Shown: in pieces, positions 38-61,429 of the stretch
Numbering within the stretch: the stretch's first letter is position 1
Layout of the letters: the number at the start of each line of letters is the position of its first letter
DNA from: Terrabacter aerolatus
Lineage (GTDB): Bacteria; Actinomycetota; Actinomycetes; Actinomycetales; Dermatophilaceae
Direction of reading: 5' to 3'
Assembly (NCBI RefSeq): GCF_007991735.1
Contig: NZ_BJYX01000011.1
Span: 1 to 64,000 of the forward strand
Length of the DNA stretch: 64,000 nucleotides
Notes under the pieces: generated by a model
Told to the model about the DNA's origin: nothing
The model's database searches: none
What the model saw: the letters and a program-made list of their open reading frames with translations, nothing else
Position numbers and translations under genes: made by a program

Positions 38-1092
38 TGGACCACGCCCGCTTCGCCGACCGGGACGCCCGCGGGGTCATCGACGTCCGACACGGCCCGG
101 AAGCCCTCGACGCCATCTCCGGCGAGGGCTTCTGGGCCGTCGTCGCGACCTTCGAGGGCGACGTGACCGCCGTGCGCTTCGCCGAGGTCACCCCGAGGCC
201 GTATGCCGTGAGCAGCAGCGTCCCAGATGGCGCCGTCCCGACCGACGCGGCGTGGCGGCCGCTCGACCGGCGCTGGGCCAGCTCGCTCGACCGGACGGCA
301 TACGTCCAGGCCGTCCGCGAGGTGCGCGAGCGCATCGCGGCGGGGACCGTCTACCAGGTCAACGTGTGCCGGGTGCTCAGCCATGCGCTCGACGACGTTG
401 CTGACCTCGACGGGCTCGACACCCTTCTGCGGCAAGGCAACCCAGCCCCGCACGCCGCCCGGGTCCGCTGCGTGGCGGCCGGTCTCGACGTCGTCAGCGC
501 GTCGCCCGAGCTCTTCCTCTCGCGTCGCGACGGACGTCTCGTCACCCGCCCGATCAAGGGGACGGCCGAGACCGCCGAGCAGATGCTGCCCAAGGACTTC
601 GCCGAGAACGTCATGATCGTCGACCTCATGCGCAACGACCTCTCGGGCGTCTGCGAGCCGGGCACGGTGTCGGTCGACGAGCTGTGCGCCCTCGAGCGCC
701 ACCCCGGCCTGGTGCACCTCGTGTCCACCGTCAGCGGGCGTCTGCGTGACGGCGTGGGCTGGCCGGACGTCTTCGCGGCCGCCTATCCACCCGGCTCCGT
801 CTCGGGTGCCCCGAAGTCGAGCGCGCTCGACGCGATCCGCGAGCTCGAACCCACCCCGCGGGGCCCGTACTGCGGGGCGGTCGGCTGGGTCGACGCCGAC
901 CGGTGCGAGGCGGAGCTCGCCGTCGGCATCCGCACGTTCTGGGCCGAACACGACGACGCCGGAGCGCGGTGGCTGCGGTTCGGCACCGGGGCCGGCATCA
1001 CGTGGCACTCCGACCCCGAGGGGGAGTGGGCCGAGACCGAGCTCAAGGCGGCCCGCCTCATCGGCCTGGCCGCCGGCACTGTGACACCATGA
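37..1092 (+). CDS. pabB: aminodeoxychorismate synthase component I (PabB)
   Basis: 351 aa, chorismate-binding fold. It aminates chorismate to 4-amino-4-deoxychorismate for folate synthesis, using ammonia from a glutaminase partner that is not in the window. The motif PIKGT has its lysine at K174; this lysine is typical of PabB, whereas anthranilate synthase TrpE has PIAGT. Other family signatures are SASPELF, the metal-binding DLMRNDL, GSVSGAPK and the C-terminal ETELKAARL. The length fits a stand-alone domain without the longer N-terminal half of many PabB proteins. The next gene, a pabC-type lyase, supplies the following step, so 37-1990 forms a p-aminobenzoate unit. The GTG start is chosen from the -10 box at 25-30. 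Confidence 0.85.
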   Translation: MDHARFADRDARGVIDVRHGPEALDAISGEGFWAVVATFEGDVTAVRFAEVTPRPYAVSSSVPDGAVPTDAAWRPLDRRWASSLDRTAYVQAVREVRERIAAGTVYQVNVCRVLSHALDDVADLDGLDTLLRQGNPAPHAARVRCVAAGLDVVSASPELFLSRRDGRLVTRPIKGTAETAEQMLPKDFAENVMIVDLMRNDLSGVCEPGTVSVDELCALERHPGLVHLVSTVSGRLRDGVGWPDVFAAAYPPGSVSGAPKSSALDAIRELEPTPRGPYCGAVGWVDADRCEAELAVGIRTFWAEHDDAGARWLRFGTGAGITWHSDPEGEWAETELKAARLIGLAAGTVTP

Positions 1093-1144
1093 TGACTCCC
1101 GTCGGGCGCCTTCCGGGCGGCCGCCGAGCCCCCAGGAAGGGACC

Positions 1145-1990
1145 ATGAGCACGACCACGCGCGTCTGGGTCGACGGCGACCTCGTCGACCCGACCGGCCC
1201 CTCCGTCTCGGCCCTGGACCACTCGGTCACGGTCGGTGACGGTGTCTTCGAGACGGCCAAGATCGCCGGAGGGCAGCCGTTCGCCCTGACGCGGCACCAC
1301 CGACGGCTCGAACGATCCGCCGCCGGGCTCGGGCTGCCGCCGCTCGACCTCGCCTTCGTCGACAAGGGCGTCGCGGCCGTCCTCGACGGGCCCGCCATCG
1401 ACTTCGGCCGGCTGCGCTACAGCGTCACCGGCGGCATCGGACCGCTCGGCTCGGACCGCGACGACGCCTCCCTGACCTACATCGCGCTGGCGGCCCCGCA
1501 GCCGCTCCCGCCCGCGAGCGGGAAGCTGACCGTCGTGCCCTGGACGCGCAACGAGCGCTCGGCCGTCGTCGGGCTCAAGACGACGTCGTACGCCGAGAAC
1601 GTCGTCGCCCTGGCGCGTGCCAAGGCGGAGGGGGCCGTCGAGGCGGTCTTCGGCAACACCCGTGGCGAGCTGTGCGAGTGCACGGGCAGCAACATCTTCG
1701 TCGTGGTCGACGGTGTCGTGCTGACGCCACCGGCCGAGTCGGGGCTGCTGCTCGGGATCACCCGCGAGCTGACGATCGAGTGGGGCCGCGCCGCCGGAAT
1801 CGAGGTGCGCGAGGAGACGTTGCCGCTCGACGTGCTCCAGAGCGCAGACGAGGTCTTCATCACCAGCTCGACCAAGGACGTCCTGCCGATCCATGCGGTC
1901 GACGACCGGATGTTGTCGGCCGACGGCCCCGTGACGAGCGAGCTCCGACGCATCTTCCGGAGCAACGCCGAGCGGGACTGCGACCCGTGA
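1145..1990 (+). CDS. pabC: aminodeoxychorismate lyase-like, fold type IV PLP enzyme
   Basis: 281 aa, class IV aminotransferase fold. It probably converts aminodeoxychorismate to p-aminobenzoate plus pyruvate. K145 in GLKTTSYAEN is the expected PLP-binding lysine, and the phosphate-binding segment ECTGSNIF and the loop SGLLLGITR are present. The ATG follows a clear ribosome site, AGGAAGGGA. The family also contains branched-chain and D-amino-acid aminotransferases, which motifs alone cannot exclude, but the position directly after pabB favours PabC. The 3' end overlaps the next gene by four bases. Confidence 0.75.
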   Translation: MSTTTRVWVDGDLVDPTGPSVSALDHSVTVGDGVFETAKIAGGQPFALTRHHRRLERSAAGLGLPPLDLAFVDKGVAAVLDGPAIDFGRLRYSVTGGIGPLGSDRDDASLTYIALAAPQPLPPASGKLTVVPWTRNERSAVVGLKTTSYAENVVALARAKAEGAVEAVFGNTRGELCECTGSNIFVVVDGVVLTPPAESGLLLGITRELTIEWGRAAGIEVREETLPLDVLQSADEVFITSSTKDVLPIHAVDDRMLSADGPVTSELRRIFRSNAERDCDP

Positions 1991-2478
1991 CGGCCGACGG
2001 TCGGGACGGCGACACGGGCAGGGCGGGGGGCCCGGCGTCCGTCGACTACTCGGACCCGAACGCGACTCTCGACGCGGGCGAGGACCGCTGGGCCTGGCGT
2101 GCCCGGCTGCGCCGCAACCCGGTGACCCACGCCATCTGGCGTACCGCCGTCGGCGTCGTCGGAGGCGTCGTCACGGTCGTCGGCCTCATCATGGTCCCCG
2201 CGCCGGGTCCGGGCTGGCTCGTCGTCTTCTTCGGACTGCTCATCCTCGCGAGCGAGTTCGAGTTCGCGCAACGCTGGCTCGACTTCGCCCGACGCCACGT
2301 CAGCCGGTGGAACGACTGGATCATGGGTCAGGCCGTCTGGGTGCGCGGTGTCGTGGCGCTCGGGACGCTGCTCGTCGTGTGGGGGGTCCTCTGGGGCTAT
2401 CTCGCCTGGGCCGGCGTCTCGCAGTTCGTCCCGGAGTGGGCCGATCAGCTGCTGACACGGGTGCCGGGGGTCGACTGA
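1987..2478 (+). CDS. PGPGW (TIGR02611-type) membrane protein
   Basis: 163 aa if started at the GTG that overlaps the pabC stop (GTGA). After a charged N-terminus of about 45 residues there are two hydrophobic segments (about 50-85 and 115-140). The first holds the diagnostic VPAPGPGW motif, followed by the acidic turn SEFEFAQRW. The family is widespread in actinobacteria and has no known function. The overlap suggests translational coupling to pabC. A longer upstream reading frame exists but would overlap pabC extensively. Confidence 0.75.
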   Translation: MTADGRDGDTGRAGGPASVDYSDPNATLDAGEDRWAWRARLRRNPVTHAIWRTAVGVVGGVVTVVGLIMVPAPGPGWLVVFFGLLILASEFEFAQRWLDFARRHVSRWNDWIMGQAVWVRGVVALGTLLVVWGVLWGYLAWAGVSQFVPEWADQLLTRVPGVD

Positions 2479-2511
2479 CATCGCGGCCGGTCGGCCCGCC
2501 ACCGGGGCGAT

Positions 2512-5504: not shown

Positions 5505-5532
5505 CGCCCGGACGGCATACGCCCTCCGGGCG
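5505..5532. terminator. bidirectional terminator hairpin with GTATGCCG-family loop
   Basis: CGCCCGGA (5505-5512) pairs with TCCGGGCG (5525-5532). The 12-base loop contains CGGCATAC on the + strand. It sits between two convergent genes and can serve both. Confidence 0.6.
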
Positions 5533-5533
5533 G

Positions 5534-7483
5534 TCAGGCCGTCCCCGACATCTCCGTGGTGAGCAGGCCCTCGGGGATCCCGAAGGCCTCGACGAGCGTC
5601 GTCGCGTGGGGGCGCAGCTCCGTGCAGACGTCGTTGACGAGCGCGGTGAGCGCCTTGGCGCGAGCCGGGCTCAGCCGGTCGTGCTCGAGGTACCACGCCT
5701 TGTGCCGCTCGATCGTCGAGAGCGCGTAGAGGTCGCAGACACGCGCCAGCACGCCGCGGGCGCTCTCGTCGGCGCACGCCTCGACCGAGGCGGCGAAGGT
5801 CTCGGCGAGCATTCGCTCGACGTGGGCGGTCGCGGCATCGACGAGGTGGTCCTGGCTCGCGTTGAACACGGCGAACGCATCGGCTCCCGGCGCCGTGGCT
5901 CGCCGCAACCGGCGGGCGAGCCCCTCGACGAGGTGCTCCTCGCGCTCGCGCAGCAGTCGCAGCTGCGTGCCCCGGATCCCGAAGGTGACGTCCTCCTCGC
6001 GACCCGGGGCCGCGTCGACGAGCCGTTGGATGATCCCCCGCGCCGACGAGCGCTCGATGACGGTGCCCCCGACGAGCCGGGCGCCGAACCGGACGATGCC
6101 GGCCGTGTCGAGGTCGCCGAACGTGGCCTGGTAGTCGGCGAGGAGCGACTTGGCGACGAGCTGGAGCAGGACGGTGTTGTCGCCCTCGAACGTCGTGAAG
6201 ATGTCGGTGTCGGCCTTGAGCGCGGCGAGGCGGTTGGCCCAGAGGTAGCCTGCGCCACCGCACAGCTCGCGGCACTCCTGGATGGTGTCGGTCGCGTGGC
6301 GCGTCGTCAGCACCTTGATGCCCGCGGCCCGGGTCTCGAGCAGTCGCTGGTCGTGCTCGCTGGTCGCGCGCCCGGCGAGCACGTCGTCCATCGCCGAGAC
6401 GAGCTCGTGCTGGGCGAGCTGGAGGGCGTATGCCGTGGCGATCCTCGGCAGCAGCCGCCGTTGGTAGGTGCGGTAGTCGAGGACCGTCGTCTCCACGTCG
6501 CTCCCGGGGGCCGCGAACTGACGCCGCCCCACGGCATACCTCGTCGTGACGGCGAGCGCCGAGCGGGCAGCCGCCCCGGCGCCACCGGCGACCGAGATGC
6601 GTCCCCGGACGAGGGTGCCGAGCATCGTGAAGAAGCGGCGTCCCGGGTTGTCGATGGGGCTCGCGTAGGTGCCGTCCTCGCCGATGTCGCCGTAGCGGCC
6701 GAGCAGGTTGGTGCGCGGGACCCGGACGTGGTCGAAGAGGAGGCGGCCGTTGTCGACGCCACCCAGGCCGAGCTTGGGACCGCAGTCCTCGATGGTGACG
6801 CCCCTTGCGGGAGTGCCGGACTCGTCGCGAATCGGGACGAGGACGCAGTGCACCCCCCGAGACTCGCCGTCGACGACGAGCTGGGCGAAGACGGCTGCGA
6901 GCCGTCCGTCCCGGGCGGCGTTGCCGATGTAGTCCTTGCGTGCGGCAGGCCCGGGCGAGTGGACGACGAGCTCGTCCGACGCAGGATCGAACGTCGCGGT
7001 CGTCAGGAGGTTCTGCACGTCGCTGCCGTGGCCGGTCTCGGTCATCGCGAAGCACCCCTGCAGCTCGCCCGAGATGATGCGGGGCAACAGGTCGTCGTGG
7101 CGGCTGGTCCCGAGGAGCGACACGGCGCCCCCGAAGAGACCCCACTGGACGCCGGCCTTGACGAAGAGCGAGAGGTCGGAGTGCCCGAGCATCTCGAACG
7201 CGGCGACCGCCTCGCCATAGCGCGCCGTCCCACCCTGGTGTTCCGGAAAGCCATGGGCCGCATAGGGCTGCGACGCCAGGTCGGCCATCTGCGAGGCGAC
7301 GCGGGCTCGGTGCTCTTCCATGGGAAGGGGCGCGGGCAGGGCCCCGAAGGTCGCCGGGTCGAGGGCGCGGCAGTGCTCGCGCACGGCGCCGAACGGGCCG
7401 TTGAGGTGGCGTCGCAGCGCGGCGGTGAGAGCGCCGGACGGGTCGGGTGCGGGCTGGGTGGGGGAGTCGGTGGCCGTCGACAT
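5534..7483 (-). CDS. acyl-CoA dehydrogenase/oxidase, FadE5-like
   Basis: 649 aa. A flavoenzyme that introduces the trans-2 double bond into acyl-CoA, the first step of beta-oxidation. CFAMTETGHGSD is the FAD/substrate loop, GNAARDG and DNGRLLFDHVRVPR follow, and the catalytic glutamate is E433 in TTFEGDN. The extended C-terminal half (about 450-649) is like acyl-CoA oxidases and the mycobacterial FadE5 group. It is transcribed away from a thiolase/FabG/MaoC operon, the same partners found around FadE5 in Mycobacterium tuberculosis (Rv0241c-Rv0244c). The TetR gene immediately upstream on the same strand is the likely regulator. Dehydrogenase versus oxidase activity cannot be decided from sequence. 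Confidence 0.85.
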   Translation of the reverse strand: MSTATDSPTQPAPDPSGALTAALRRHLNGPFGAVREHCRALDPATFGALPAPLPMEEHRARVASQMADLASQPYAAHGFPEHQGGTARYGEAVAAFEMLGHSDLSLFVKAGVQWGLFGGAVSLLGTSRHDDLLPRIISGELQGCFAMTETGHGSDVQNLLTTATFDPASDELVVHSPGPAARKDYIGNAARDGRLAAVFAQLVVDGESRGVHCVLVPIRDESGTPARGVTIEDCGPKLGLGGVDNGRLLFDHVRVPRTNLLGRYGDIGEDGTYASPIDNPGRRFFTMLGTLVRGRISVAGGAGAAARSALAVTTRYAVGRRQFAAPGSDVETTVLDYRTYQRRLLPRIATAYALQLAQHELVSAMDDVLAGRATSEHDQRLLETRAAGIKVLTTRHATDTIQECRELCGGAGYLWANRLAALKADTDIFTTFEGDNTVLLQLVAKSLLADYQATFGDLDTAGIVRFGARLVGGTVIERSSARGIIQRLVDAAPGREEDVTFGIRGTQLRLLREREEHLVEGLARRLRRATAPGADAFAVFNASQDHLVDAATAHVERMLAETFAASVEACADESARGVLARVCDLYALSTIERHKAWYLEHDRLSPARAKALTALVNDVCTELRPHATTLVEAFGIPEGLLTTEMSGTA

Positions 7484-8351: not shown

Positions 8352-9659
8352 ATGGCATCCCAGTCCGCCCAGAGGACCGCCCCCCGCGCGCCGCGCCGTG
8401 TCGCGATCGTCGGGGGCAACCGCATCCCCTTCGCCCGGTCCAACGGCCCCTACGCCAAGGCCTCCAACCAGGACATGCTCACCGCGGCCGTCGACGGGCT
8501 CGTCGCGCGTCACGGACTCGCCGGCGAGCGACTCGGCGAGGTCGTCGCCGGAGCAGTCCTCAAGCACAGCCGCGACTTCAACCTCACGCGCGAGACCGTA
8601 CTCGGCACGCGCCTCGACCCGACGACGCCGGCCTACGACATCCAGCAGGCCTGCGGTACCGGTCTGGAGGCGGCGATCCTCGTGGCCAACAAGATCGCCC
8701 TGGGCCAGGTCGACGCCGGCATCGCCGGAGGGGTGGACAGCGCCAGCGACGCCCCCATCGCCGTGAGCGAGGGCCTGCGCCGGACGCTCCTGGCCGCCAA
8801 CCGCGCCCGGTCGGCGGGCGAGCGCGCCAAGGCGCTGGCGGGGCTGCGTCCCGCCCACCTGGTGCCCGCCATCCCGGAGAACGTCGAGCCGCGCACGGGT
8901 CTGTCGATGGGCGAGCACATGGCGCTGACGGCCGCCCAGTGGGGCATCACCCGCGAGGCCCAGGACGAGCTCGCGGCGGCGAGCCACCAGCACCTCGCCG
9001 CAGCCTACGAGCGCGGCTTCTTCGACTACCTCGTCACGCCGTACCTCGGAGTCTCACGTGACACTAACCTGCGGCCGGACTCCAGCGTGGAGAAGCTGTC
9101 CACCCTGAAGCCCGCGTTCGGCAAGGGCGACGGCGCGACGATGACGGCCGGCAACTCGACGCCGCTCACCGACGGCGCGTCGGCCGTGCTCCTCGCGAGC
9201 GAGGAGTGGGCGGCCGAGCACCGGCTGACACCGCTCGCCTGGTTCGTCGACGCCGAGACCGCTGCCGTCGACTACGTCCACGGCCACGAGGGGCTGCTCA
9301 TGGCGCCCGCGTATGCCGTGCCGCGGCTGCTCGCCCGAAACGGACTGACCTTGCAGGACTTCGACTTCTACGAGATCCACGAGGCGTTCGCCGCCACGGT
9401 GCTCACGACCCTCAAGGCCTGGGAGGATCCCGACTTCTGCCGCGAGCGTCTCGGGCTCGAGGCGCCGCTCGGCTCGATCGACCGGAGCCGGCTCAACGTC
9501 AACGGCTCGTCGCTGGCGGCGGGTCACCCGTTCGCCGCGACCGGCGGGCGCATCGTGGCCTCGCTCGCCAAGCAGCTCAAGGAGGCGGGCGGTGGCCGAG
9601 GCCTCATCTCCATCTGCGCCGCCGGCGGCCAGGGCGTCGTCGCGATCCTGGAGGCATGA
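8352..9659 (+). CDS. acetyl-CoA acyltransferase (thiolase), FadA2-like
   Basis: 435 aa. It cleaves 3-ketoacyl-CoA, or condenses two acyl-CoA in reverse. Catalytic elements are the nucleophile cysteine in QQACGTGLEA, the histidine in GHPFAATGGR and the second cysteine near the end in CAAGGQG. The ATG follows AGGAGAG. The stop overlaps the next gene (ATGA), so thiolase, reductase and dehydratase are translationally linked. With the divergent acyl-CoA dehydrogenase these genes cover all four chemical steps of a beta-oxidation or reverse cycle. Confidence 0.88.
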   Translation: MASQSAQRTAPRAPRRVAIVGGNRIPFARSNGPYAKASNQDMLTAAVDGLVARHGLAGERLGEVVAGAVLKHSRDFNLTRETVLGTRLDPTTPAYDIQQACGTGLEAAILVANKIALGQVDAGIAGGVDSASDAPIAVSEGLRRTLLAANRARSAGERAKALAGLRPAHLVPAIPENVEPRTGLSMGEHMALTAAQWGITREAQDELAAASHQHLAAAYERGFFDYLVTPYLGVSRDTNLRPDSSVEKLSTLKPAFGKGDGATMTAGNSTPLTDGASAVLLASEEWAAEHRLTPLAWFVDAETAAVDYVHGHEGLLMAPAYAVPRLLARNGLTLQDFDFYEIHEAFAATVLTTLKAWEDPDFCRERLGLEAPLGSIDRSRLNVNGSSLAAGHPFAATGGRIVASLAKQLKEAGGGRGLISICAAGGQGVVAILEA

Positions 9660-10998: not shown

Positions 10999-11856
10999 AT
11001 GACCAAGGAGATCACGCTCGACGGAGCCCCCGACCTGCGCCGCATCTACGCGACCGCGGCGCTGCGGCGGGGCAACGACAGCGACACCCTGCCCGACGTG
11101 CGCTACTCGCGAGCCGGCATACGCGTCGACGTCGACGACCTCGTCGCCTACTCGCGCGTGTGCCGGTTCCCGGTGACCGGAGCCCTGCCGTCGACGTACC
11201 TCCACCTCGTCGCCTTCCCCCTCCAGATGCAGGTCATGAGCGGAGACCGCTTTCCCCTGCCGCTGCTCGGCGCCGTGCACGTCGAGAACCGCATCGAGGC
11301 CACCCGGCCCGTCGGGGTCGACGAGCCGCTGGACGTCTCGGTCTGGGCGCAGGACCTCCGCCCGCACCGCCGTGGGCGCCAGGTCGACCTCGTGTCCGAG
11401 GCCTCGGTCCGAGGCGAGACGGTCTGGCGCGGCATCAGCACCTATCTCTCGCGCGGCACCGAGCACGCGGACACCGAGTCGTCCGACCCACCCTCGACGG
11501 AGCAGCTCGCATCCGTAGGCGCCGGCCCGCTCTGGCTGCTCGCCGAGGGCACCGGCCGGTCGTATGCCGCGGTGTCGGGTGACTGGAACCCCATCCACGT
11601 GCACGCTCTCACGGCCAGGCCGCTCGGCTTCCCCACCGCGATCGCGCACGGGATGTACTCCTACGCACGGGTGCTCGCGTCGCTCGGTCCGAGGCTTCCC
11701 GCGTCGGGACTGACGAGCCGGGTGTGGTTCCGCAAGCCGGTGCGGCTCCCGTCGACCGTGCGCCTGCGGACCGCCTTCGAGCGCTCACGCACCCTGTCGG
11801 TGCTCGAGAACGCCACGGGCGAGATCGAGCACGCCGTCGTCGAGAACAGCTGGTGA
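10999..11856 (+). CDS. MaoC-type (R)-hydroxyacyl dehydratase, HtdX-like
   Basis: 285 aa, double hot-dog protein. The C-terminal hot-dog carries the hydratase-2 motif GDWNPIHVHALTARPLGF with catalytic Asp and His, then AHGMYS. The N-terminal hot-dog (about 20-170) is the inactive half that lengthens the substrate pocket. It should interconvert 3-hydroxyacyl and trans-2-enoyl thioesters, working with the FabG4-like enzyme upstream, as HtdX (Rv0241c) does next to FabG4. Last gene of the operon. Confidence 0.82.
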   Translation: MTKEITLDGAPDLRRIYATAALRRGNDSDTLPDVRYSRAGIRVDVDDLVAYSRVCRFPVTGALPSTYLHLVAFPLQMQVMSGDRFPLPLLGAVHVENRIEATRPVGVDEPLDVSVWAQDLRPHRRGRQVDLVSEASVRGETVWRGISTYLSRGTEHADTESSDPPSTEQLASVGAGPLWLLAEGTGRSYAAVSGDWNPIHVHALTARPLGFPTAIAHGMYSYARVLASLGPRLPASGLTSRVWFRKPVRLPSTVRLRTAFERSRTLSVLENATGEIEHAVVENSW

Positions 11857-14002: not shown

Positions 14003-14108
14003 GTATGCCGTGTGGTGACGCGGGAGGAGCCCTTGCCGACCTCGTCGGCGGGGGCTCCTTCGCTGCGCGCGGGGCGGCCGTGGCCGCGGACGGGGCACAC
14101 GGCATACG
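14003..14108 (+). terminator. thrS terminator nested in a GTATGCCG inverted repeat
   Basis: Core hairpin: AGGAGCCC (14025-14032) and GCCGAC (14035-14040) pair with GTCGGC (14044-14049) and GGGCTCCT (14052-14059), a strong terminator-like stem. Around it, CGTATGCCGTGTG (14002-14014) is exactly complementary to CACACGGCATACG (14096-14108), so the whole 107 bases can fold into one closed structure. Confidence 0.6.
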
Positions 14109-27285: not shown

Positions 27286-27360
27286 CGGGGGAGCGCGGTT
27301 AGCGTGGTCCCGAACACCTGTTCGGATCGCCCGTCCCGCCCACAGACCTGGAGGTATGCC

Positions 27361-41446: not shown

Positions 41447-42058
41447 TCACGTGCCGGGCGGCGGCCGCAGCCCCTGCTCCCTCAGCTCGAGCAGGGCGAG
41501 CCGGTGGATGACGTCGCGGTCCTGGCGCCGCCAGGCGCCCGCAGGGTCGTCGGACACCCGCGCCAGCGCCCGCATCGGTTGCGTCGCCAGGGCCCGCAGC
41601 GCGAACAGGTCGAGGTCCTCGCCGGCGTCGATGAACCGCTGCGACCGGGTGGCGTTGCGCACGAAGCGGACCCGGACGTAGAGCCAGACCGCGAGCACGA
41701 TCAGGATGGGCACGAGCGCCGTGGCGAGCCCCAGCACGACGGCGAGCGTGTCGACGGTCTCCGCCATGGAGGTCCCGGCCGACTGGAGCGTCTTGCCCGA
41801 CCCCGCGGCCTGGGTCAGCCAGCCCTTCAGCTGGTCGCCCACGAGCGGGAGCTGGCCCGCCTGGTTGCCCGCGCCCGTCAGGGCGCCGTCGACCGAACGG
41901 CCCGCCGAGGTGATCGAGTCGGCGGGGGCGCGGAGGCGGTCGACGGTGTCGTGGACCTGGCGGCCGGCATACACCCACACCCCGAGCCAGAGCAGCATGA
42001 ACACGTCCGACAGGATCTGCCGGGTGCGTCGGGCGGGCGCGTCCGCGTAGAGCCTCAC
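41447..42058 (-). CDS. two-helix membrane protein of unknown function
   Basis: 203 aa from the GTG at 42058, which overlaps the stop of the upstream gene (GTGA). One hydrophobic segment near the start (LSDVFMLLWLGVWVYAG), a central region rich in Gly/Ala/Ser between about 35 and 105, and a second segment at about 110-132. The polar C-terminus ends DVIHRLALLELREQGLRP. I do not recognise a family. The reading frame stays open far upstream, but that part is the antisense of the neighbouring gene. Confidence 0.65.
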   Translation of the reverse strand: MRLYADAPARRTRQILSDVFMLLWLGVWVYAGRQVHDTVDRLRAPADSITSAGRSVDGALTGAGNQAGQLPLVGDQLKGWLTQAAGSGKTLQSAGTSMAETVDTLAVVLGLATALVPILIVLAVWLYVRVRFVRNATRSQRFIDAGEDLDLFALRALATQPMRALARVSDDPAGAWRRQDRDVIHRLALLELREQGLRPPPGT

Positions 42059-43757: not shown

Positions 43758-44740
43758 CCGACCAGGTCGTCACCGGGCCACCCGCGGCACGGCTCTCGCG
43801 CCTCGAGCGCGACGTCCGCGGGTGGCTCGACCACGTCCGGGTCGAGAGGGGCGCCTCCGACAACACCCTGAAGTCCTACGCCCGCGACCTGCGCGCCTAC
43901 ACCGCCTACCTGGCCGCCAGGGGCGTCGACGAGCCCGGGCGGGTCACCGAGGCGGACGTCACCGACTTCCTCGCCTCCCTGCGTGAGCGCGGGCTGGCCG
44001 CGTCGTCGGCGGCGCGCACGCTCGTGGCGGTGCGCGGCTTCCACCGCTTCCTCGCGCTCGAGGGCGAGGTCGCCGGCGACCCCGCCGCCAACGTCGCACC
44101 GCCCAAGCCGCCCGCCCGCCTGCCCAAGGCCATCCCGATCGAGGCCGTCGAGCGTCTCCTCGCGGCCGCGTCGGTCGGCGACACGCCCGAGTCGCTGCGC
44201 GACCGCGCCCTGCTGGAGGTCCTCTACGGCATCGGCGCACGCATCAGCGAGGCCGTCGGCCTCGACGTCGACGACATCGAGACGGCCGGCCCGGACGAAC
44301 CCGCGGCCGCGGGTGCGGCGCGCGGGGGAACGGCGTCGGTGCGCCTGCGCGGCAAGGGCGGCAAGGAGCGCATCGTCCCGGTCGGTCGCTACGCCGTCGA
44401 GGCCGTGACGGCATACCTCGTCCGGGGGCGGCCGGCCCTCGCCACGCACGGGACGGGCGGTCCGGCGCTCTTCCTCAACCAGCGCGGCGCGCGCCTCTCC
44501 CGCCAGTCCGCCTGGGCCGTCATCCGTCGCGCGGCCGAGCGGGCCGACCTCACCGAGCACGTCTCGCCGCACACGCTGCGGCACTCCTTCGCAACGCACC
44601 TGCTCGACGGCGGAGCCGACGTGCGCGTCGTGCAGGAGCTGCTCGGGCACGCCTCGGTGACCACGACCCAGATCTACACGATGGTCTCGGTGCACCGACT
44701 CCGCGAGGTCTATGCGGGCGCCCACCCCCGCGCCCGCTGA
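43754..44740 (+). CDS. xerD: site-specific tyrosine recombinase XerD (apparent CTG start)
   Basis: 328 aa. With XerC it resolves chromosome dimers at dif under FtsK control. The catalytic set is complete: R163, K204, H273, R276, H299 and the nucleophile Y308. The N-terminal core-binding domain (about 15-100, [19 protein letters not shown] onwards) is conserved, yet the first ATG/GTG in frame is at 44024, inside that domain. The only start that fits is CTG at 43754, which overlaps the ald stop as CTGA, the same architecture as the ATGA/GTGA junctions elsewhere here. Position before parA-scpA-scpB supports XerD rather than a phage integrase. Confidence 0.88.
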
Positions 44741-46834: not shown

Positions 46835-47510
46835 CCAGTCGGCGCAGGGGCCCGACGCGACCGCCGAGGCGGACGTGGCCGTGGAGCCCGACGTGGCCGT
46901 GGAGCCCGACGACCACGACGGTGCCGACGAGCAGATCGCCTTCGACATCAACGACTTCCCGGGCGGCGCCCGGTCTGCCCTCGAGGCCGTGCTCATGGTC
47001 GTCGACGAGCCCGTGACCGAGGTGGCGTTGGCGTCGGCGCTCGAGCTCCCCGTCGAGGACGTGCGCGGGCACCTGCACGCCCTCGAGGAGGAGTATGCCG
47101 CCGCGCAGCGCGGGTTCACGCTGCGCAGCGTGGCCGGCGGGTGGCGCGTCTACAGCCGGTCCGACTTCGCGCCCGTCGTGGAGAAGTTCGTCCTCGACGG
47201 GCAGCAGGCCAAGCTGACGCAGGCCTCGCTCGAGACGCTGGCCGTCATCGCCTACCGCCAGCCCGTCTCGCGCGCCCGCGTCAGCGCGGTCCGGGGCGTC
47301 AACGTCGACGGTGTGGTGCGCACACTGACGTCGCGCGGACTCATCGAAGAGGTCGAGGACCTCGGGGAGAGCGGTGCGATGCTCTATCGCACGACCCCCT
47401 ACTTCCTCCAACGCATGGGACTGTCGTCGCTCGACGACCTCCCGGCGCTGGCGCCCTACCTACCGGACGCCGACGTCATCGACGAGCTCATCGAGGAAGG
47501 ACACGCATGA
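46827..47510 (+). CDS. scpB: segregation and condensation protein B
   Basis: 227 aa. Two winged-helix domains (about 50-125 and 130-210); QASLETLAVIAYRQPVSRARVSAVRGV is the family signature. Acidic N-terminal 45 residues with a VAVEPDVAVEPD duplication. Forms a dimer on ScpA. The stop overlaps the pseudouridine synthase start (ATGA). Confidence 0.94.
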   Translation: MSDQSAQGPDATAEADVAVEPDVAVEPDDHDGADEQIAFDINDFPGGARSALEAVLMVVDEPVTEVALASALELPVEDVRGHLHALEEEYAAAQRGFTLRSVAGGWRVYSRSDFAPVVEKFVLDGQQAKLTQASLETLAVIAYRQPVSRARVSAVRGVNVDGVVRTLTSRGLIEEVEDLGESGAMLYRTTPYFLQRMGLSSLDDLPALAPYLPDADVIDELIEEGHA

Positions 47511-48505
47511 GCGAGTACTCCAGGTCACCCCGCCAGCCACGCAAGAAGGGGTCCGGCTCGTCCGGTTCGTCAGGGGGCACCGGCGGCGCCCGCCGAGGGG
47601 GTCCCGCGGCCGCCCGTGGTGGCTCCGGTTCCAAGGGGCGCACCGGTCGACCCGTCGCGGGCGGACGCAGCGGGGGAGGCGCCAAGGGCGCGGGACCGCG
47701 TTTCGCCGGCTCGACCAAGGCGAGCCAGCCCACCAAGCTGCCCGAGCGCAGGGCCACTCCCGAGATCGACGTGCACGACCCCGACGGCGTGCGCCTCCAG
47801 AAGCTCATGGCCGCCGGCGGGGTGGGCTCGCGGCGCGTCTGCGAGAACCTCATCGAGCAGGGCCGTGTCGAGGTCGACGGTCAGATCGTCACCGAGCTCG
47901 GCGTGCGCATCAACCCGCAGACCCAGGTCGTCCACGTCGACGGGGTGCGGGTCAACCTCGACGAGGACCGCGTCTACCTCGCCTTCAACAAGCCCAAGGG
48001 CGTCGTCACGACGATGCACGACGAGCTCGGGCGCATCTCGCTCGAGGACTACGTCGGCAACCGCGAGGAGCGGCTCTTCCACGTCGGGCGCCTCGACGCC
48101 GACACCGAGGGCCTGCTGCTGCTCACCAACGACGGAGACCTGGCCCACCGGCTGCAGCACCCGGCATACGGCGTGCTCAAGACGTACATCGCGACGATCC
48201 GCGGACCGGTCCAGCGCGACGTCGGCAAGCGGCTGCGTGACGGTGTCGAGCTCGATGACGGCCCGGTGAGCGTGGACTCGTTCCGCATCGTCGACCACCA
48301 ACCCGGCAAGGCCATGGTCGAGGTGGTGCTGCACGAGGGGCGCAAGCACGTCGTGCGCCGCATGCTCGAGGCCGTCGGCCACCCGGTGCTCGAGCTCGTG
48401 CGCACCGAGGTCGGGCCCATCCGTCTCGCCGACCTCAAGTCGGGGCGCCTGCGCCGGCTCAACAAGGCCGAGATCGGCGCGCTCTACAAGGCCGCCGGTC
48501 TGTGA
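47507..48505 (+). CDS. rRNA pseudouridine synthase, RsuA/RluB family
   Basis: 332 aa. A 75-residue basic, Gly/Ser/Arg-rich N-terminal tail, an S4 RNA-binding domain (about 90-140: RLQKLMAAGGVGSRRVCENLI) and the catalytic domain with GRLDADTEGLLLLTND, whose first Asp is the nucleophile. Probably modifies 23S rRNA as RluB does. The tail is longer than in mycobacterial homologues and likely binds RNA. Confidence 0.92.
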   Translation: MSEYSRSPRQPRKKGSGSSGSSGGTGGARRGGPAAARGGSGSKGRTGRPVAGGRSGGGAKGAGPRFAGSTKASQPTKLPERRATPEIDVHDPDGVRLQKLMAAGGVGSRRVCENLIEQGRVEVDGQIVTELGVRINPQTQVVHVDGVRVNLDEDRVYLAFNKPKGVVTTMHDELGRISLEDYVGNREERLFHVGRLDADTEGLLLLTNDGDLAHRLQHPAYGVLKTYIATIRGPVQRDVGKRLRDGVELDDGPVSVDSFRIVDHQPGKAMVEVVLHEGRKHVVRRMLEAVGHPVLELVRTEVGPIRLADLKSGRLRRLNKAEIGALYKAAGL

Positions 48506-48551: not shown

Positions 48552-49634
48552 GTGAGCACGCACGTCCACATCGTCGGTACGGGGCTGATCGGCACCAGTC
48601 TTGGAATCGCTCTGTCCCACAACGGGTTTCGAGTGTCCCTGGCTGACCCTTCCCCGACCGCGGTTCGTCTGGCGCGTGATCTCCAGGCGGGCGAGGTCGC
48701 CGACGACGAGACCTCTGCACCCGATGTCGTCGTCGTCGCCGCGCCCCCCGACGTCACGGCGCGCGTCGTCGTGGACGTCCTGGACCGGTGGCCCGATGCC
48801 GTCGTGACCGACGTCGCCTCGGTCAAGGAGTCGGTGCTGCGCGTCGTGCTCGACTCCGGCGCCGACGCCAGCCGCTACGTCGGCTCGCACCCGATGGCCG
48901 GGCGCGAGCGCTCCGGCGCAGCGGCAGCGCGCGCCGACCTCTTCGACGGCCGGGCCTGGGTCATCGTCCCCCACGAGGGCTCCACCGACGCAGCCGTCCG
49001 CCGCGTGCGCGAGGTGGCCCTCGCCGTCGGCTCCGCCGTCCGCGTCATGCCCGCGCACGAGCACGACGAGGCCGTCGCCGCCGTGTCGCACGTCCCGCAG
49101 CTGGCCGCGAGCATCGTCGCGGCGTGCCTGCGCGAGCTGCCCGAGTCGGCCGTGGGGCTCGCCGGCCAGGGGTTGCGTGACGTCACGCGGATCGCCGCGA
49201 GCGACCCACGCCTCTGGACCCAGATCCTCGCCGGCAACGCGCCGGCCGTGCGCGACGTCCTGCGCCTCGTCCGTGACCAGGTCGACGACGTCGTCGGGGC
49301 GCTCGACGCACTCGTGGACGCCGACGGGGACGGGTCGCTCGGCACGCTGAGTCGCGTCCTCGAAGCCGGCAACCTCGGCCACGCGCGCATCCCCGGCAAG
49401 CACGGTGCCGCCCCTGCGGCATACGAGGTGGTCTCGGTCGTGGTCCCCGACGAGGCCGGCGCGCTGGCCCGGCTGCTCACCGACGTCGGCGAGGCCGGCA
49501 TCAACCTCGAGGACCTCCACCTCGAGCACGGTCTGGGACAGGCGGTCGGCGTGGCCGAGATCTCCGTCGTGCCCGCCTCCGTCGAACCGTTGCGCGCCGA
49601 GCTGGCACGGCTCGGCTGGCGCGTCCACGACTGA
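48552..49634 (+). CDS. tyrA: prephenate dehydrogenase
   Basis: 360 aa. Oxidative decarboxylation of prephenate for tyrosine synthesis. NAD loop VGTGLIGTSLG, substrate motif GSHPMAGRERSG, catalytic region VSHVPQLAAS, and a C-terminal ACT-like domain (about 285-360: VVPDEAGALARLLTDVGEAGINLEDL) that probably senses tyrosine. Within the first 45 bases of coding sequence the codon use is less G+C-rich than the rest. Confidence 0.93.
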   Translation: MSTHVHIVGTGLIGTSLGIALSHNGFRVSLADPSPTAVRLARDLQAGEVADDETSAPDVVVVAAPPDVTARVVVDVLDRWPDAVVTDVASVKESVLRVVLDSGADASRYVGSHPMAGRERSGAAAARADLFDGRAWVIVPHEGSTDAAVRRVREVALAVGSAVRVMPAHEHDEAVAAVSHVPQLAASIVAACLRELPESAVGLAGQGLRDVTRIAASDPRLWTQILAGNAPAVRDVLRLVRDQVDDVVGALDALVDADGDGSLGTLSRVLEAGNLGHARIPGKHGAAPAAYEVVSVVVPDEAGALARLLTDVGEAGINLEDLHLEHGLGQAVGVAEISVVPASVEPLRAELARLGWRVHD

Positions 49635-55884: not shown

Positions 55885-56120
55885 TCGTTGTCGTATGCCG
55901 TCCGCGCCCTTGCGACGGTTGGCGGCGCCTCGCGAATCCGCCCGTAACGCAAGCCTTCCCGGCCTTCGCTGCAAGGACTCCCTTGGCGCCACAAGCGTTC
56001 CGCAAGGTATGCGCAACATTGCCCGACGTGCCCTGTTTCCGGCTGATTCGCGTGTCAGTGTTGCACCAGCAGATCACCAAGAAACGGTAAAACCACTCGA
56101 GGGAAAGGTCATGGGGGACC
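55885..56120 (+). other. leader/promoter region of the surface-protein operon
   Basis: About 235 bases with a locally lower G+C content (56000-56100). The ribosome site GGGGGA precedes the ATG at 56121. Several TTG- and TA-rich hexamers are present, but no promoter pair has convincing spacing. No additional gene seen. Confidence 0.35.
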
Positions 56121-57488: not shown

Positions 57489-59233
57489 TGCCGCACCGGA
57501 CGACCCCGAAGACGCGCGCACGCCGTGCCGCCCCGAGCCGCGGCGTGCGCGCCCTTCACGTCGGCCTCCTGCTGACCGTCCTCATGACCGTGTCGGGGAC
57601 CGCCTGGGCCGCCTGGTCTACGGCGGGTGGCGGGACGGGCAGCGGGTCCACGGGCACCCTCTCGGCGCCGTCGGCCGTCACGGCGACCGCCGCCGGCGGG
57701 GGCTCAAGCGTCTCCGTGTCCTGGAGCGCCCCGTCCACCGGGGTCGCGCCCGCGGGATACCGCGTGGACCGCACCGACACCACGTCCGGGACCATCGCCG
57801 GGGCCTGTGGCTCGTCGAGCACGTCACTCGTCACCGGTACCTCGTGCACCGACGCGTCGGTGCCCGACGGCACCTACCGCTACACGGTCGTGGCGATCCG
57901 CTCGGGATGGACGGCCACGAGCGCCACGAGCGCCGCGGTCACGGTCCGCGCCGCGGTGTCCACGACCACGACCCTCGCCTCGTCGGCCACCCCGTCGGTC
58001 GTCGGACAGACGGTGACCCTCACCGCGACGGTCACCGCAGGAAACGGCACGCCGACGGGCACGGTCGTCTTCCGCGACGGCGGGTCCGCCATCTCGTGCA
58101 GCGGCGGCACCCAGACGCTCGGCTCCGGCACGGCCACCTGCTCGACGACCTGGTCGAGCGCCGGTACACGCAGCCTCACCGCCGCGTATGCCGGGTCGGC
58201 GCCCTACGCTGCGTCGTCCTCGTCCGTCGTGGGCCAGGTCGTCAACGCCGCCTCGACGACCACGAGGGTGGCCTCCTCGACGAGCCCGTCGGTCGTCGGC
58301 CAGTCCGTGACCTACACCGCGACGGTGTCGGCACCGGCCCCCGGGGGCGGCGTACCGTCCGGCACCGTCACCTTCCGTGACGGCGGGTCCACGATCACGT
58401 GCGCCGGGGGCGCCACCCAGACCTTGAGCTCGGGGACGGCGACGTGCGTCGTGGCGTCCGGGTCGGCAGGAACGCACAGCATCACGGCGGTCTACGCCGG
58501 CTCGACCAACCACATCGCCTCCACCTCGTCGGCGACGAGCCAGGTCGTCAACCCCGCCTCGACGACGACGAGCCTGACGAGCTCGGCCGGCAGCGTGACG
58601 CCCGGCCAGAGCCTCATCTTGACGGCCACCGTGGTCGCGGTCGCGCCCGGAGGGGGAGTACCCACGGGTTCGGTCACCTTCAAGGACGGCGCCACCACCC
58701 TGTCGTGCGCCTCCGGAACGCAGACGCTCGACGCCTCCGGGGTGGCTACCTGCACGACGTCGTTCGCCACGACGGGCTCGCGGACGATCACGGCCACGTA
58801 TGCCGGTAGCTCGAACTACGGGACGTCCACGTCCGCCGGGGTGTCCGAGTCTGTCGTCAACGCCTCGGCATCGGGGCTCGGCTTCTCGGGGGTCACCGTG
58901 GACGGCAGTGCCCAGACGCCGACCTGCACCGGCACTCCCGGCTCGGGGTACAGCTGCTCCGTCACGGGCGGCAACAACGCCGTCCTGTCCGCGACGGTCG
59001 GTTTCGTGGACAGGGCGGGCAACCCCGTCGCCTACAACTCGGCGACGGAGACCATCTCGTGGACGACCACGGGCAAGACGGCCGGGAGCGGCACCGTCAC
59101 CGTCGCACCCAACACGACGACCTCGACCAGCAGCGTCTCGGCGACGAAGAAGGGCAGCAACCCGGCATCCATCACGGTGACCTTCAAGACCGCGGCCGGC
59201 GCCACGTGGAGCGCGACCCTCAACCTGAGCTGA
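57488..59233 (+). CDS. secreted repeat protein with Fn3 and three Ig-like domains
   Basis: 581 aa. Basic N-terminus with hydrophobic signal (about 22-42, ending AWAAWST, like the first gene's AYAYWTS). Then a fibronectin type III domain (about 55-152) and three Ig-like (Big_3-type) repeats (about 157-248, 250-347, 349-441). Each repeat begins TTT-L/V-SS and ends YAGS. A C-terminal beta-domain follows (about 445-581). No LPXTG or membrane anchor. Likely a surface or matrix adhesin exported with the two upstream proteins. Confidence 0.7.
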   Translation: MPHRTTPKTRARRAAPSRGVRALHVGLLLTVLMTVSGTAWAAWSTAGGGTGSGSTGTLSAPSAVTATAAGGGSSVSVSWSAPSTGVAPAGYRVDRTDTTSGTIAGACGSSSTSLVTGTSCTDASVPDGTYRYTVVAIRSGWTATSATSAAVTVRAAVSTTTTLASSATPSVVGQTVTLTATVTAGNGTPTGTVVFRDGGSAISCSGGTQTLGSGTATCSTTWSSAGTRSLTAAYAGSAPYAASSSSVVGQVVNAASTTTRVASSTSPSVVGQSVTYTATVSAPAPGGGVPSGTVTFRDGGSTITCAGGATQTLSSGTATCVVASGSAGTHSITAVYAGSTNHIASTSSATSQVVNPASTTTSLTSSAGSVTPGQSLILTATVVAVAPGGGVPTGSVTFKDGATTLSCASGTQTLDASGVATCTTSFATTGSRTITATYAGSSNYGTSTSAGVSESVVNASASGLGFSGVTVDGSAQTPTCTGTPGSGYSCSVTGGNNAVLSATVGFVDRAGNPVAYNSATETISWTTTGKTAGSGTVTVAPNTTTSTSSVSATKKGSNPASITVTFKTAAGATWSATLNLS

Positions 59234-59281: not shown

Positions 59282-60700
59282 TCACCTCGACGTCAGGCGC
59301 GACCGGGCCTCGGCGCGGGTGGTCGGAGGCGGCGGCCCGTCCGCTGCCCGCACGAGGTCGGCCGCCGTCGGTCGGCCGGCCTCCGGGGCGCCGCGGTCCG
59401 ACGGGGCCGCACCGGTCTCGGGGGCGGCTGCCGGTGTGGCGACGCTGGCGCCGCCGACCGTGAGCGCGGCGATGGCCGTCGTGACGGGCACCGCGAGGAC
59501 GAGTCCGATCGCGCTCGAGAGGGTCCGCACGATCTCCTCCGACAGCGACTCCGTCTGGAGCATCTCGAGCACGGGACGGTCGTAGAGGAAGATGAGCAGC
59601 AGCACCGGGAGGGCGGCGCCGGCATACGCGAAGACGATCGTGTAGATCGTCGAGGCGATGTGGTCGCGTCCGATGCGCATCCCCGACCGGAACAGCTCAC
59701 GGCGTCCCATCGACGGCGCGGCCGCACGCAGCTCCCACACGGCCGACGACTGGGTGATGGTCACGTCGTTGAGCACGCCGAGCCCGGCCACGATGATCGC
59801 GCACGTCAGCAGCTCGCGGGGGTTCATCGTCGTGACGAACGACGCCAGCGTGGCGCCCTCGTCGTTGGCGACGCCGCTCAAGCGCGCCATGTCGACGGCC
59901 AGCAGGCCCAGGCCGGCGGTGATGCCCACACCGAAGAGCGTGCCCGCGAGGGCCGTGCTCGTGCGCACCGACAACCCGTGGGCGAGGTAGAGGACGACGA
60001 ACATGATGGCCGACGAGCCGATGAGGGCCACGAGCAGGCCGGACTGCCCCTCGAGGAGGGCCGGCAGCATGAACCTGGCGACGACGAGCCCGCCGAAGCC
60101 GAGGCCGGCCAGGGCGAGCACGCCACGCCACCGCGCCACGGCGGCCACGACGACGAGGAAGAGGGCCAGCATCAACGACAGGGGAGCGCCGCGCTGGACC
60201 TGGAGGAAGGAGTAGGTCTCGGACTGACCGTTCTGAGCCGGTGTCCGCAGCAGCTGGACGCTGTCGCCCTCGCGCAGCCCCGAGAGCGAGACCGCGGGAG
60301 GCACCTGCACCGACACCGTCGGCCGCACGTCCCCCGAGGTCGGACTGGGCTGCGCCAGCTGCACGGTGATCGCGCCGCACGCCGCTGGCGCATCACCCAC
60401 GCCGCCCGACGGTCCCGACGAAGCCTGGCCGCTCGACCCGGCTCCGGGGCAGACCGGGAGGACCCTCTGCACCTCGGCGACGGGCAGGGTGACCCCGGGG
60501 GCCGCGAAGTCGGTCGTGCCCACGCTGCTGGAGGAGGCCTGCGCGTCGCCGGGCCAGTAGCGCACGATGCCGTAGACCGTGGCAGCCGCGGCCAGGACGA
60601 GCACGAGCGTCAGCCCCACCCGGGCGAGCGTGCTGACGGCGACGTGGCCCGAGGCGCCACGGTCGGCATGCGAATGCGTGTGCGAGTGTCCGCCGGGCAT
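59282..60700 (-). CDS. YibE/F-family membrane protein
   Basis: 472 aa from the ATG at 60700. A His-rich N-terminus (GGHSHTHSHADRG) that could bind metal, one transmembrane segment (about 25-45), an extracellular domain with two cysteines (about 50-165), then seven or so helices with the family signature (AGLGVLNDVTITQSSAVWEL, SGMRIGRDHIASTIYTIVFAYAG). Function of YibE/F is unknown. Reverse-strand CACACT stands seven bases before the ATG. An in-frame extension upstream is rejected because it would cross that box. Confidence 0.85.
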   Translation of the reverse strand: MPGGHSHTHSHADRGASGHVAVSTLARVGLTLVLVLAAAATVYGIVRYWPGDAQASSSSVGTTDFAAPGVTLPVAEVQRVLPVCPGAGSSGQASSGPSGGVGDAPAACGAITVQLAQPSPTSGDVRPTVSVQVPPAVSLSGLREGDSVQLLRTPAQNGQSETYSFLQVQRGAPLSLMLALFLVVVAAVARWRGVLALAGLGFGGLVVARFMLPALLEGQSGLLVALIGSSAIMFVVLYLAHGLSVRTSTALAGTLFGVGITAGLGLLAVDMARLSGVANDEGATLASFVTTMNPRELLTCAIIVAGLGVLNDVTITQSSAVWELRAAAPSMGRRELFRSGMRIGRDHIASTIYTIVFAYAGAALPVLLLIFLYDRPVLEMLQTESLSEEIVRTLSSAIGLVLAVPVTTAIAALTVGGASVATPAAAPETGAAPSDRGAPEAGRPTAADLVRAADGPPPPTTRAEARSRLTSR

Positions 60701-60807
60701 GGTGCCGAGTGTGCCAGAGCCTCGGTCGCGAGGCGGGTCGCGCCATCGCGCCCCAGCCGTGTCCGGATCGATGCCGAAGGCGCGCATCGGCCCTCCGGGG
60801 CGGCCGT

Positions 60808-60813
60808 TAGGCT
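60808..60813 (+). promoter_or_regulatory. -10 box of leaderless pgsA
   Basis: TAGGCT ends seven bases before the GTG at 60821. Confidence 0.55.
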
Positions 60814-60820
60814 AGCCGCC

Positions 60821-61429
60821 GTGGAGGTCGAGAGCACGGGAGAGCGCGAGCACGTCGTGACGGAGCGACTCCTGACGATCCCCAACGTGCTGTCCGTGCT
60901 GCGTCTCGTGGGAGTGCCCGTCTTCCTCTGGGCCATCCTGTCCGAGCGAGACGGGCTCGCCTTCCTGCTGCTGCTCCTGTCCGGCGTCACGGACTACCTC
61001 GACGGCAAGATCGCCCGACAGTTCAACATGGAGAGCCGTCTCGGCCAGTTGCTCGATCCCGTCGCCGACCGGCTCTACATCCTCGCGACGCTCTTCGGAC
61101 TCGTGTGGCGCGACCTCATCCCGGTCTGGCTGGTCGCGGTGATCCTCGCCCGCGAGGTCGTCATGGCCCTCATGCTGGCGTTCCTGCGCACCCGGGGACA
61201 GCTCGGCCTGCCCGTGCACTTCGTCGGCAAGGCCGCGACCTTCAACCTGCTCTACGCCTTCCCGCTCCTGCTGCTCGCGCACCGCGATGACTGGCTGGGC
61301 GCCCTGGCCCGCCCGATCGGGTGGGGCTTCGCGTGGTGGGGCGTCGTGCTCTACTGGCTCGCCGCGGTGCTGTATGCCGTGCACGCCAGGATCGTGCTCG
61401 GGCGGGCTCCGCGGACGGTGACGTCGTGA
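60821..61429 (+). CDS. pgsA: CDP-diacylglycerol-glycerol-3-phosphate 3-phosphatidyltransferase
   Basis: 202 aa, about five helices. CDP-alcohol transferase motif DG-x2-AR-x8-G-x3-D-x3-D is intact (DGKIARQFN, GQLLDPVAD), and the N-terminal TIPNVLSVLRLVGVPVFL is typical of PgsA. It makes phosphatidylglycerol phosphate. It heads a four-gene operon (pgsA - DUF881 - sbp - DUF881) in the same order as Rv1822-Rv1825 of M. tuberculosis. Confidence 0.88.
   Translation: MEVESTGEREHVVTERLLTIPNVLSVLRLVGVPVFLWAILSERDGLAFLLLLLSGVTDYLDGKIARQFNMESRLGQLLDPVADRLYILATLFGLVWRDLIPVWLVAVILAREVVMALMLAFLRTRGQLGLPVHFVGKAATFNLLYAFPLLLLAHRDDWLGALARPIGWGFAWWGVVLYWLAAVLYAVHARIVLGRAPRTVTS

Follow-up and report, generated by a model that had tools for sequence, protein, structure and literature searches.

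The stretch analysed here (the window) comprised 64,000 nucleotides of Terrabacter aerolatus (contig NZ_BJYX01000011.1, positions 1 to 64,000, forward strand), 91% of which was coding according to our home-made gene caller. Scattered over it, in genes and between them, were 36 exact copies of the non-palindromic eight-letter word GTATGCCG, located at 201..61379 (Table 1). A preliminary description of the window had counted 20 forward and 16 reverse copies and had proposed a dispersed signal resembling DNA-uptake sequences. The count was reproduced exactly and was far above the mean of 0.70 (maximum 3) obtained with 100 dinucleotide shuffles.

Abundance and placement of the word

The excess was not confined to the window. 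The whole genome (G000, the source of the window; 4.42 Mb in 62 contigs) contained 1072 + 1091 = 2163 copies, approximately one per 2 kb, and the reversed word, used as the control, occurred 195 times (90 + 105). In 404 kb of this genome, GTATGCCG was the most over-represented 8-mer under Markov models of order 1 and order 2 (229 copies against 4.9 and 6.4 expected). Under order 3 (10.5 expected) it ranked second, after the overlapping word TATGCCGT. A motif-masked order 3 model predicted 2.8 copies in 824 kb, in which 444 were present. A maximal-order model of the window alone did not flag GTATGCCG, because its sub-words occur almost solely within it: TATGCC occurred 38 times in the window, at least 36 of them inside GTATGCCG. 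The word was sharply bounded, as all 24 one-mismatch variants together gave 539 occurrences against 381 expected. In the flanks, about half of the copies had T at position 9 and about 60% had C at position -1.

The form with T at position 9, GTATGCCGT, includes ATGCCGT, the first seven letters of the AT-DUS variant of the neisserial DNA uptake sequence (DUS) as printed in PMC12061091 (statements on published work here and below refer to parts of the cited papers). A kinship between the two was rejected and the likeness treated as coincidence, because the CTG core of DUS is missing.

The enrichment between genes and the lack of strand bias, both claimed in the preliminary description, were upheld. 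In the window, 9 of the 36 copies lay outside genes or at their edges (8 fully intergenic, plus the copy at 27354). In 404 kb, where 11% of the bases were non-coding, 64 of 229 copies were intergenic and 3 more lay on gene edges, a 2.6-fold enrichment (64 of 226 with edges left out; binomial p 6e-13). With edge copies counted, the density was highest between convergent genes (20 in 7.2 kb, ~2.8 per kb), followed by tandem (34 in 22.3 kb, ~1.5 per kb) and divergent genes (13 in 14.4 kb, ~0.9 per kb). Pairs within 60 bp were mostly inverted (16 in 824 kb, 13 facing and 3 diverging, against 3 direct). Strand polarity was absent from a 480-kb contig (133 + versus 142 -; origin and terminus not mapped), the most skewed 60-kb piece of which had 10 versus 18 copies. 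Orientation counts on four pieces of the genome were 133/142, 33/34, 35/31 and 20/16, and those in two relatives were 89/108 on 220 kb and 104/94 on 200 kb.

Between congeners, the copies were partly conserved. The alignment with the single congener compared (G172; 87% identity over 52.7 kb) covered 33 of the 36 window copies, and 21 of these were kept identical, compared with 40% of all 8-mers (p 0.006) and 19 of 66 control words of the same strong/weak pattern (p 0.0009). Twelve copies differed in G172 and five G172 copies were lacking in the window; the sites therefore turn over.

Genic copies in the 404 kb were oriented 113 sense to 49 antisense, and 99 of these 162 shared a single phase relative to the codons (sense-strand NNG TAT GCC GNN). 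Such a preference would suit a word produced by a mutational hotspot, by gene-conversion bias or by codon usage. However, the favoured phase uses the rare codon TAT (126 TAT versus 1470 TAC among 89,727 training codons). The excess over the masked model, the enrichment outside genes, the better conservation than in the pattern-matched controls and a spacing that control words of like abundance lack (see below) also argue against an artefact of this kind, which we regard as scarcely credible.

Table 1. Copies of GTATGCCG in the 64-kb window.
Word	Positions	Strand	Remarks
GTATGCCG	201..208	+	exact match
GTATGCCG	296..303	-	exact match
GTATGCCG	5513..5520	-	exact match; intergenic, convergent
GTATGCCG	6428..6435	+	exact match
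GTATGCCG	6532..6539	-	exact match
GTATGCCG	9311..9318	+	exact match
GTATGCCG	11115..11122	-	exact match
GTATGCCG	11562..11569	+	exact match
GTATGCCG	14003..14010	+	exact match; intergenic
GTATGCCG	14100..14107	-	exact match; intergenic
GTATGCCG	17488..17495	+	exact match
GTATGCCG	20643..20650	-	exact match
GTATGCCG	23096..23103	+	arm 1 of inverted pair, 27 bp past the end of a pdxS-like gene
GTATGCCG	23123..23130	-	arm 2 of inverted pair begun at 23096
GTATGCCG	23344..23351	+	exact match
GTATGCCG	23713..23720	-	exact match
GTATGCCG	24733..24740	+	exact match
GTATGCCG	27354..27361	+	one-base overlap with a called gene start
GTATGCCG	27894..27901	-	exact match
GTATGCCG	34195..34202	+	exact match
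GTATGCCG	34350..34357	-	exact match
GTATGCCG	35359..35366	+	exact match
GTATGCCG	35710..35717	+	exact match
GTATGCCG	39292..39299	-	arm 1 of inverted pair; intergenic
GTATGCCG	39318..39325	+	arm 2 of inverted pair begun at 39292; intergenic
GTATGCCG	41965..41972	-	exact match
GTATGCCG	43598..43605	+	exact match
GTATGCCG	44409..44416	-	exact match
GTATGCCG	47093..47100	+	exact match
GTATGCCG	48162..48169	-	exact match
GTATGCCG	49417..49424	-	exact match
GTATGCCG	55893..55900	+	exact match; intergenic
GTATGCCG	58186..58193	+	exact match
GTATGCCG	58798..58805	+	exact match
GTATGCCG	59620..59627	-	exact match
GTATGCCG	61372..61379	+	exact match

Other features of the same DNA were recorded. Just past the motif pair behind pdxS lay a near-perfect palindrome of ~77 bp (23156-23233), and the RNA fold of 23139-23241 had -66 kcal/mol. 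Pieces like it recurred in congeners: a 6.7-kb query gave 60 matches in G170 and 62 in G172, and most of the matches listed fell on the palindrome. The 824 kb of the own genome held a single further, weak copy. The palindrome resembles a repetitive extragenic palindrome (REP) or a miniature inverted-repeat transposable element (MITE). A second dispersed, partly palindromic piece lay at 24283-24353, with two more sites in the own contig C1. The longest motif-free stretch in the own-genome DNA examined (G000 C1:128155-138646, 10.5 kb) carried flagellar genes (FliQ-like, FlgE-like). An origin of this largest gap as foreign DNA was not supported: of eight reading frames tested in it, two were flagellar and six had no match.

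Spacing on each strand

Spacing was analysed in 824 kb of G000; the genomes of relatives were sampled by 14-240 kb each. Neighbouring copies in G000 alternated in orientation more often than they shared it (297 versus 143). Beyond 300 bp the alternation persisted (250 versus 133), with a fraction of 0.653 compared with a mean of 0.489 and a maximum of 0.622 for 300 control words. The alternation arose because copies on the same strand avoid each other. In successive distance bins from 0-100 bp to 4-6 kb, the observed/expected ratio of same-strand pairs was 0.25, 0.33, 0.39, 0.39, 0.62, 0.80, 0.79, 0.92 and 1.01. Ratios for opposite-strand pairs were 0.71-1.20, except for facing pairs closer than 300 bp (2.5 and 1.4). 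Below 1 kb there were 44 same-strand pairs against 118 expected (Poisson p 4e-15), and at 100-1000 bp there were 101 opposite-strand pairs against 108 expected. Of 150 control words, none was equally depleted on the same strand in any of the bins between 20 bp and 1 kb, one was at 1-2 kb and 11 were at 2-4 kb.

The alternation was repeated in a second genome rich in GTATGCCG (G142; 151 versus 68). The controls as depleted as the word there numbered one of 20 at 20-100 bp, none at 100-300 bp, none at 300-1000 bp and seven at 1-2 kb. The avoidance of same-strand copies within 1-3 kb, without avoidance on the opposite strand, is a new feature and is clear in these two genomes. In short stretches of 15 genomes besides G000, alternating neighbours outnumbered same-orientation neighbours in 13, mostly without individual significance; the exceptions were G008 (12 alternating, 14 same) and G125 (see below).

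A word read regardless of its orientation would be expected to be spaced jointly over both strands; in G000 and G142 the strands were spaced independently instead. This fits a process for which, within 1-3 kb, one copy on a given strand is beneficial and another is not, such as orientation-directed import. In Neisseria gonorrhoeae, transformation is reported to have a strand preference (Duffin and Seifert 2012, cited in PMC12061091).

Spacing per strand fits a Chi-like signal too, which was therefore kept as a rival. A helicase-nuclease that processes DNA ends (AdnAB or another) would read the word on one strand and switch from degradation to recombination, and orientation-specific reading would likewise tile the strands separately. 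Like GTATGCCG, a non-palindromic word with strand-specific spacing, Chi has eight letters; it is over-represented and read according to its orientation (PMC8022716). Candidates for Chi are, however, defined by leading-strand polarity together with an excess in the core genome (PMC8022716), whereas GTATGCCG was balanced on the 480-kb contig. In the parts of the literature covered, neither an excess between genes nor inverted pairing at their ends was listed for Chi. The word was abundant in genomes with RecC (G142, G125, G086) and without it (G000, G173, G007). RecBCD as the reader of GTATGCCG was discarded: RecC, present in 15 of 27 genomes, was found with and without the word alike and had no link to it (AdnAB/AddAB not searched). 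According to published work, AdnAB occurs in Actinobacteria only, where RecBCD serves single-strand annealing (PMC6452273). Altogether we consider a Chi-like role unlikely.

If the word were bound by a nucleoid protein, or by one that organises the chromosome, and its sites were placed to cover the DNA evenly, the even distribution of the copies would be accounted for (variance/mean of 0.45 and 0.53 per strand in 5-kb bins). This explanation fails to predict that copies on opposite strands ignore each other, or that the word changes or is absent among close relatives, and it appears very improbable.

Distribution in the family and words of the relatives

The excess extended to relatives (genomes are designated by G and genera by g numbers). 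In a survey of all 186 genomes of the family, 107 had at least 390 copies of GTATGCCG, spanning 30 of 53 genera. Many of the remaining genomes were near the control count and some were intermediate. Counts of 189-293, 4-5 times the control, were found in G002, G003, G004, G017 and G018 (genera g3 and g9), which suggests a decaying or minor use of the word; G017 was rich in SGATGCSG. No genome from other families of the order exceeded 180 copies (361 of 396 sampled genomes), and the top one had a control count of 195. Among the families sampled, abundant GTATGCCG was thus a property of one family. High and background counts were mixed within genera, with G008 in g4, G114 in g42 and G084 in g33.

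Some relatives without GTATGCCG had another abundant word: CGAAGGGG, GTAGACC, GTACGCCG or GTACGGCG, and GGATGCCG. These dialects were read from 40-100 kb of 22 genomes with low or intermediate counts, by comparing word frequencies between genomes, and whole-genome counts were made on 43 genomes. Calls from Markov excess alone were discarded as unreliable, since word counts are inflated by codon pairs such as GTC TAC; this comparison and the whole-genome counts took their place. Stretches of 1.4 and 4.0 kb (G092 and an early one of G096) were dropped as too short. An own dominant word was found in 11 of the 22 genomes (G008, G114, G084, G052, G064, G093, G178, G083, G015, G014 and G090), the weakest being those of G014 and G090.

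The word CGAAGGGG had 1553-3180 copies in all four g27 and all three g36 genomes and 84-376 in the other 36. The pattern GTACG[CG]CG, which like [CG]GATGC[CG]G pools several words, had 3660-5257 copies in G084, G015, G088, G089 and G090, 1933 in G014 and 223-1335 in the other 37. The GTACG words were weak in 40 kb of G090 and G014; their whole-genome counts were clear for G090 and moderate for G014. For [CG]GATGC[CG]G, 6676-7149 copies were counted in G017, G034 and G178, the next highest of the 43 genomes having 4600; the excess word GGATGCCG occurred 41 times in 40 kb of G178 and 16 times in 11 kb of G034. GTAGACC reached 2110 copies in G008, whereas its four congeners had 476-651 and 13 further genomes 370-916. 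Less secure was GTAGCGGC in G114, the top 8-mer with 32 copies in 100 kb against ~4-6 expected, since among 7-mers codon repeats (CAGCAGC) outranked its parts. In G083, CGATGCGG was counted only via the degenerate SGATGCSG (4220 in 2.8 Mb), and a further 11 kb had five copies of CGATGCGG and seven of CGATGCCG; we regard it as a weak dialect. Two stretches of G093 (L059 and L060) contained 58 eight-letter words composed of G or C in 40 kb against 3.8 expected, counting overlapping windows, which may reflect a few long runs.

In a tree of 25 genomes based on three proteins of the shared tad locus (one deep node had a support of 0.004), the words mostly followed clades: g27 was placed with g36 (CGAAGGGG) and G015 with G090 (GTACGCCG). 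G178, G084, G008 and G114 were each the sister of a GTATGCCG species. Exceptions were the GGATGCCG genomes G034 and G178, which stood apart, and GTATGCCG itself, which was scattered over five places. The label of no word for G184, G096, G161 and G001 in this tree rests on 40-60 kb each.

In the register chosen, every word counted had A as its third letter, and no three-letter core was common to all. The shared A would suit a methylation-linked word like the highly iterated palindrome HIP1 of cyanobacteria, in which an orphan methyltransferase would mark the word and repair would act in its favour. To tell the strands apart, a mark that is not palindromic would have to be present on both of them, so that strand-wise spacing is also predicted. 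A contiguous, non-palindromic methylation target of 8 bp would be unusual, which counts against this explanation. HIP words are palindromic, in contrast to GTATGCCG; on the other side, cyanobacteria without HIP1 can have other abundant words, some of which match a predicted methyltransferase (PMC4390886). We judge a methylation-linked origin improbable, by a shade more than the Chi-like signal. Such a role could be compatible with uptake rather than exclusive of it: Campylobacter jejuni reportedly needs methylated self-DNA for uptake (PMC8468864).

A proposed uptake signal and its relation to known systems

We propose that GTATGCCG, with T preferred at position 9, is probably a self-DNA uptake signal of this actinobacterium that accumulates by transformation drive and acts directionally (probability approximately 0.58, as judged from the whole analysis). 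The word is abundant, limited to the family, replaced by other words in relatives, placed preferentially between genes, spaced per strand in two genomes and partly conserved. From these observations we infer a receptor, an uptake preference, directionality and drive. The likeness to DNA-uptake sequences claimed at the outset holds as a likeness and as a ranking of explanations, with uptake itself presumed, and is extended by the dialects, the degree of intergenic enrichment and the inverted pairs.

In the proposed mechanism, the word on free double-stranded DNA would be bound by a surface protein of a Tad/Flp pilus active in transformation, or by a ComEA partner, and the DNA would be drawn in and passed as a single strand through ComEC. 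Fragments bearing the word would enter and recombine more often, so that it would accumulate by transformation drive and be held against mutation. As the word is non-palindromic, its orientation could set the imported strand or side. Within the length of a fragment, a further copy would add something only if its orientation were opposite to that of the first, and the strands would be spaced separately. Drift of the receptor would let a new word accumulate and the old one decay, giving rise to dialects.

The preliminary description had pointed to competence and pilus genes. ComEC was found in 180 of 186 family genomes; four of the six misses were in genomes less than 85% complete, and the other two (G129, G169) were 93-95% complete but in more than 500 contigs. 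TadE was present in all 38 and the shared tadA in all 28 genomes searched. The genes are thus present in carriers of the word and compatible with uptake, but being nearly universal in the family they do not discriminate. Transformation of Micrococcus luteus depends on ComEC and on tad genes (PMC4322843). In 23 loci, the neighbours of comEC showed no correspondence with the signal (G011, G019, G022 and G099 gave few called genes). Three tad-locus pilins were not found in G007, G009, G084, G085 and G114, the locus of G114 lying at a contig end. Word-switch pairs were mostly more diverged in whichever tad-locus gene was measurable. In genus g27, tadA had one in-frame TGA in G052 (C1:2712773-2713837) and G064 (C1:2670572-2671651), which may be due to decay, a frameshift or a sequencing error.

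Several results weigh against an uptake signal. Half of the 22 genomes read for dialects (G001, G004, G011, G019, G021, G022, G038, G096, G154, G161 and G184) had no clear own word in 40-60 kb, and those checked have ComEC and Tad; genomes that have the signal cannot be told by their competence genes from genomes that lack it. No receptor candidate emerged from the pilins of one tad locus when word-switch pairs were compared with same-word congeners. In G093, which uses CGAAGGGG, the alternation was not significant (115 versus 92): same-strand ratios were 0.58-0.81 at 100-2000 bp, and 87 (20-100 bp), 16 (100-300 bp), 6 (300-1000 bp) and 9 (1000-2000 bp) of 150 controls were as depleted. Ten other dialect genomes, when pooled, showed slight avoidance, with same-strand ratios of 0.91, 0.80, 1.15 and 1.02 from 100 bp to 4 kb (at 100-300 bp, 19 pairs where 20.9 were expected; at 300-1000 bp, 57 and 71.6; at 1-2 kb, 113 and 98.5, respectively). 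In some dialects the avoidance may be diluted by background copies. A third GTATGCCG genome, G125, had the opposite trend (1 alternating, 6 same; 8 copies in 20 kb). The conservation of the word was not significantly different from that of 22 other TAT words, a small control (p 0.11), and at 8-9 bp the motif is shorter than the neisserial 10-12.

A wider system of uptake signals in Actinobacteria, with at least five words or groups supported by whole-genome counts, Tad pili, directional action and a range of spacing per strand that measures the length of the imported fragment, is conceivable, and we hold it tentatively, at rather less than even confidence. If the uptake reading is true, self-recognising uptake would have evolved in a third, distant lineage with a different pilus, and such signals would reach beyond the two Gram-negative families in which they are established. 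Sequence-based mating barriers, in the form of dialects, would be shown to arise repeatedly. The family would offer a system for finding the receptor by covariation, and the word a means of tagging DNA for the transformation of actinobacteria that resist manipulation. Spacing per strand can be used in any genome to test an abundant word for directional action.

The statement of the preliminary description that no such signal is known from actinobacteria was uncontradicted: none appeared among the titles listed in a literature search, with most subscription papers and all of bioRxiv outside it. Among the known systems, Chi resembles GTATGCCG as an 8-bp, non-palindromic, over-represented and orientation-read word (PMC8022716); unlike Chi, GTATGCCG has no polarity, is enriched between genes, is replaced in close relatives and has no link to RecC. 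HIP1 is similar in its great abundance and in the other words of some relatives (PMC4390886), but it is a palindrome and includes sequences that known methyltransferases target. The uptake signal sequence (USS) of Pasteurellaceae has approximately one copy per kb in Haemophilus influenzae and forms close inverted pairs at gene ends as terminators (PMC7811141); it likewise has dialects, of which there are two (PMC12616744). In contrast to USS, the sequence here is unrelated, the words are more numerous and the host is presumably of the Gram-positive type.

The DUS of Neisseriaceae, with ComP as the receptor, shares with GTATGCCG the abundance, the intergenic inverted pairs and dialects that follow phylogeny, of which DUS has eight (PMC3630211). 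Inverted pairs in terminators are formed by both DUS and USS (PMC2397512, PMC7811141), and the spacing of DUS is reported to match the length of conversion fragments (PMC2397512). Unlike DUS, the word of 8-9 bp described here lacks the CTG core and belongs to a high-GC actinobacterial family with Tad genes; for DUS, no mention of same-strand avoidance was found in the parts of the sources covered. The main text of the report on Micrococcus luteus does not contain the terms "uptake sequence", "sequence-specific" or "sequence specific" (PMC4322843). Its Flp/Tad-dependent transformation resembles the system proposed here in being actinobacterial and in involving comEA, comEC and tad genes (PMC4322843).

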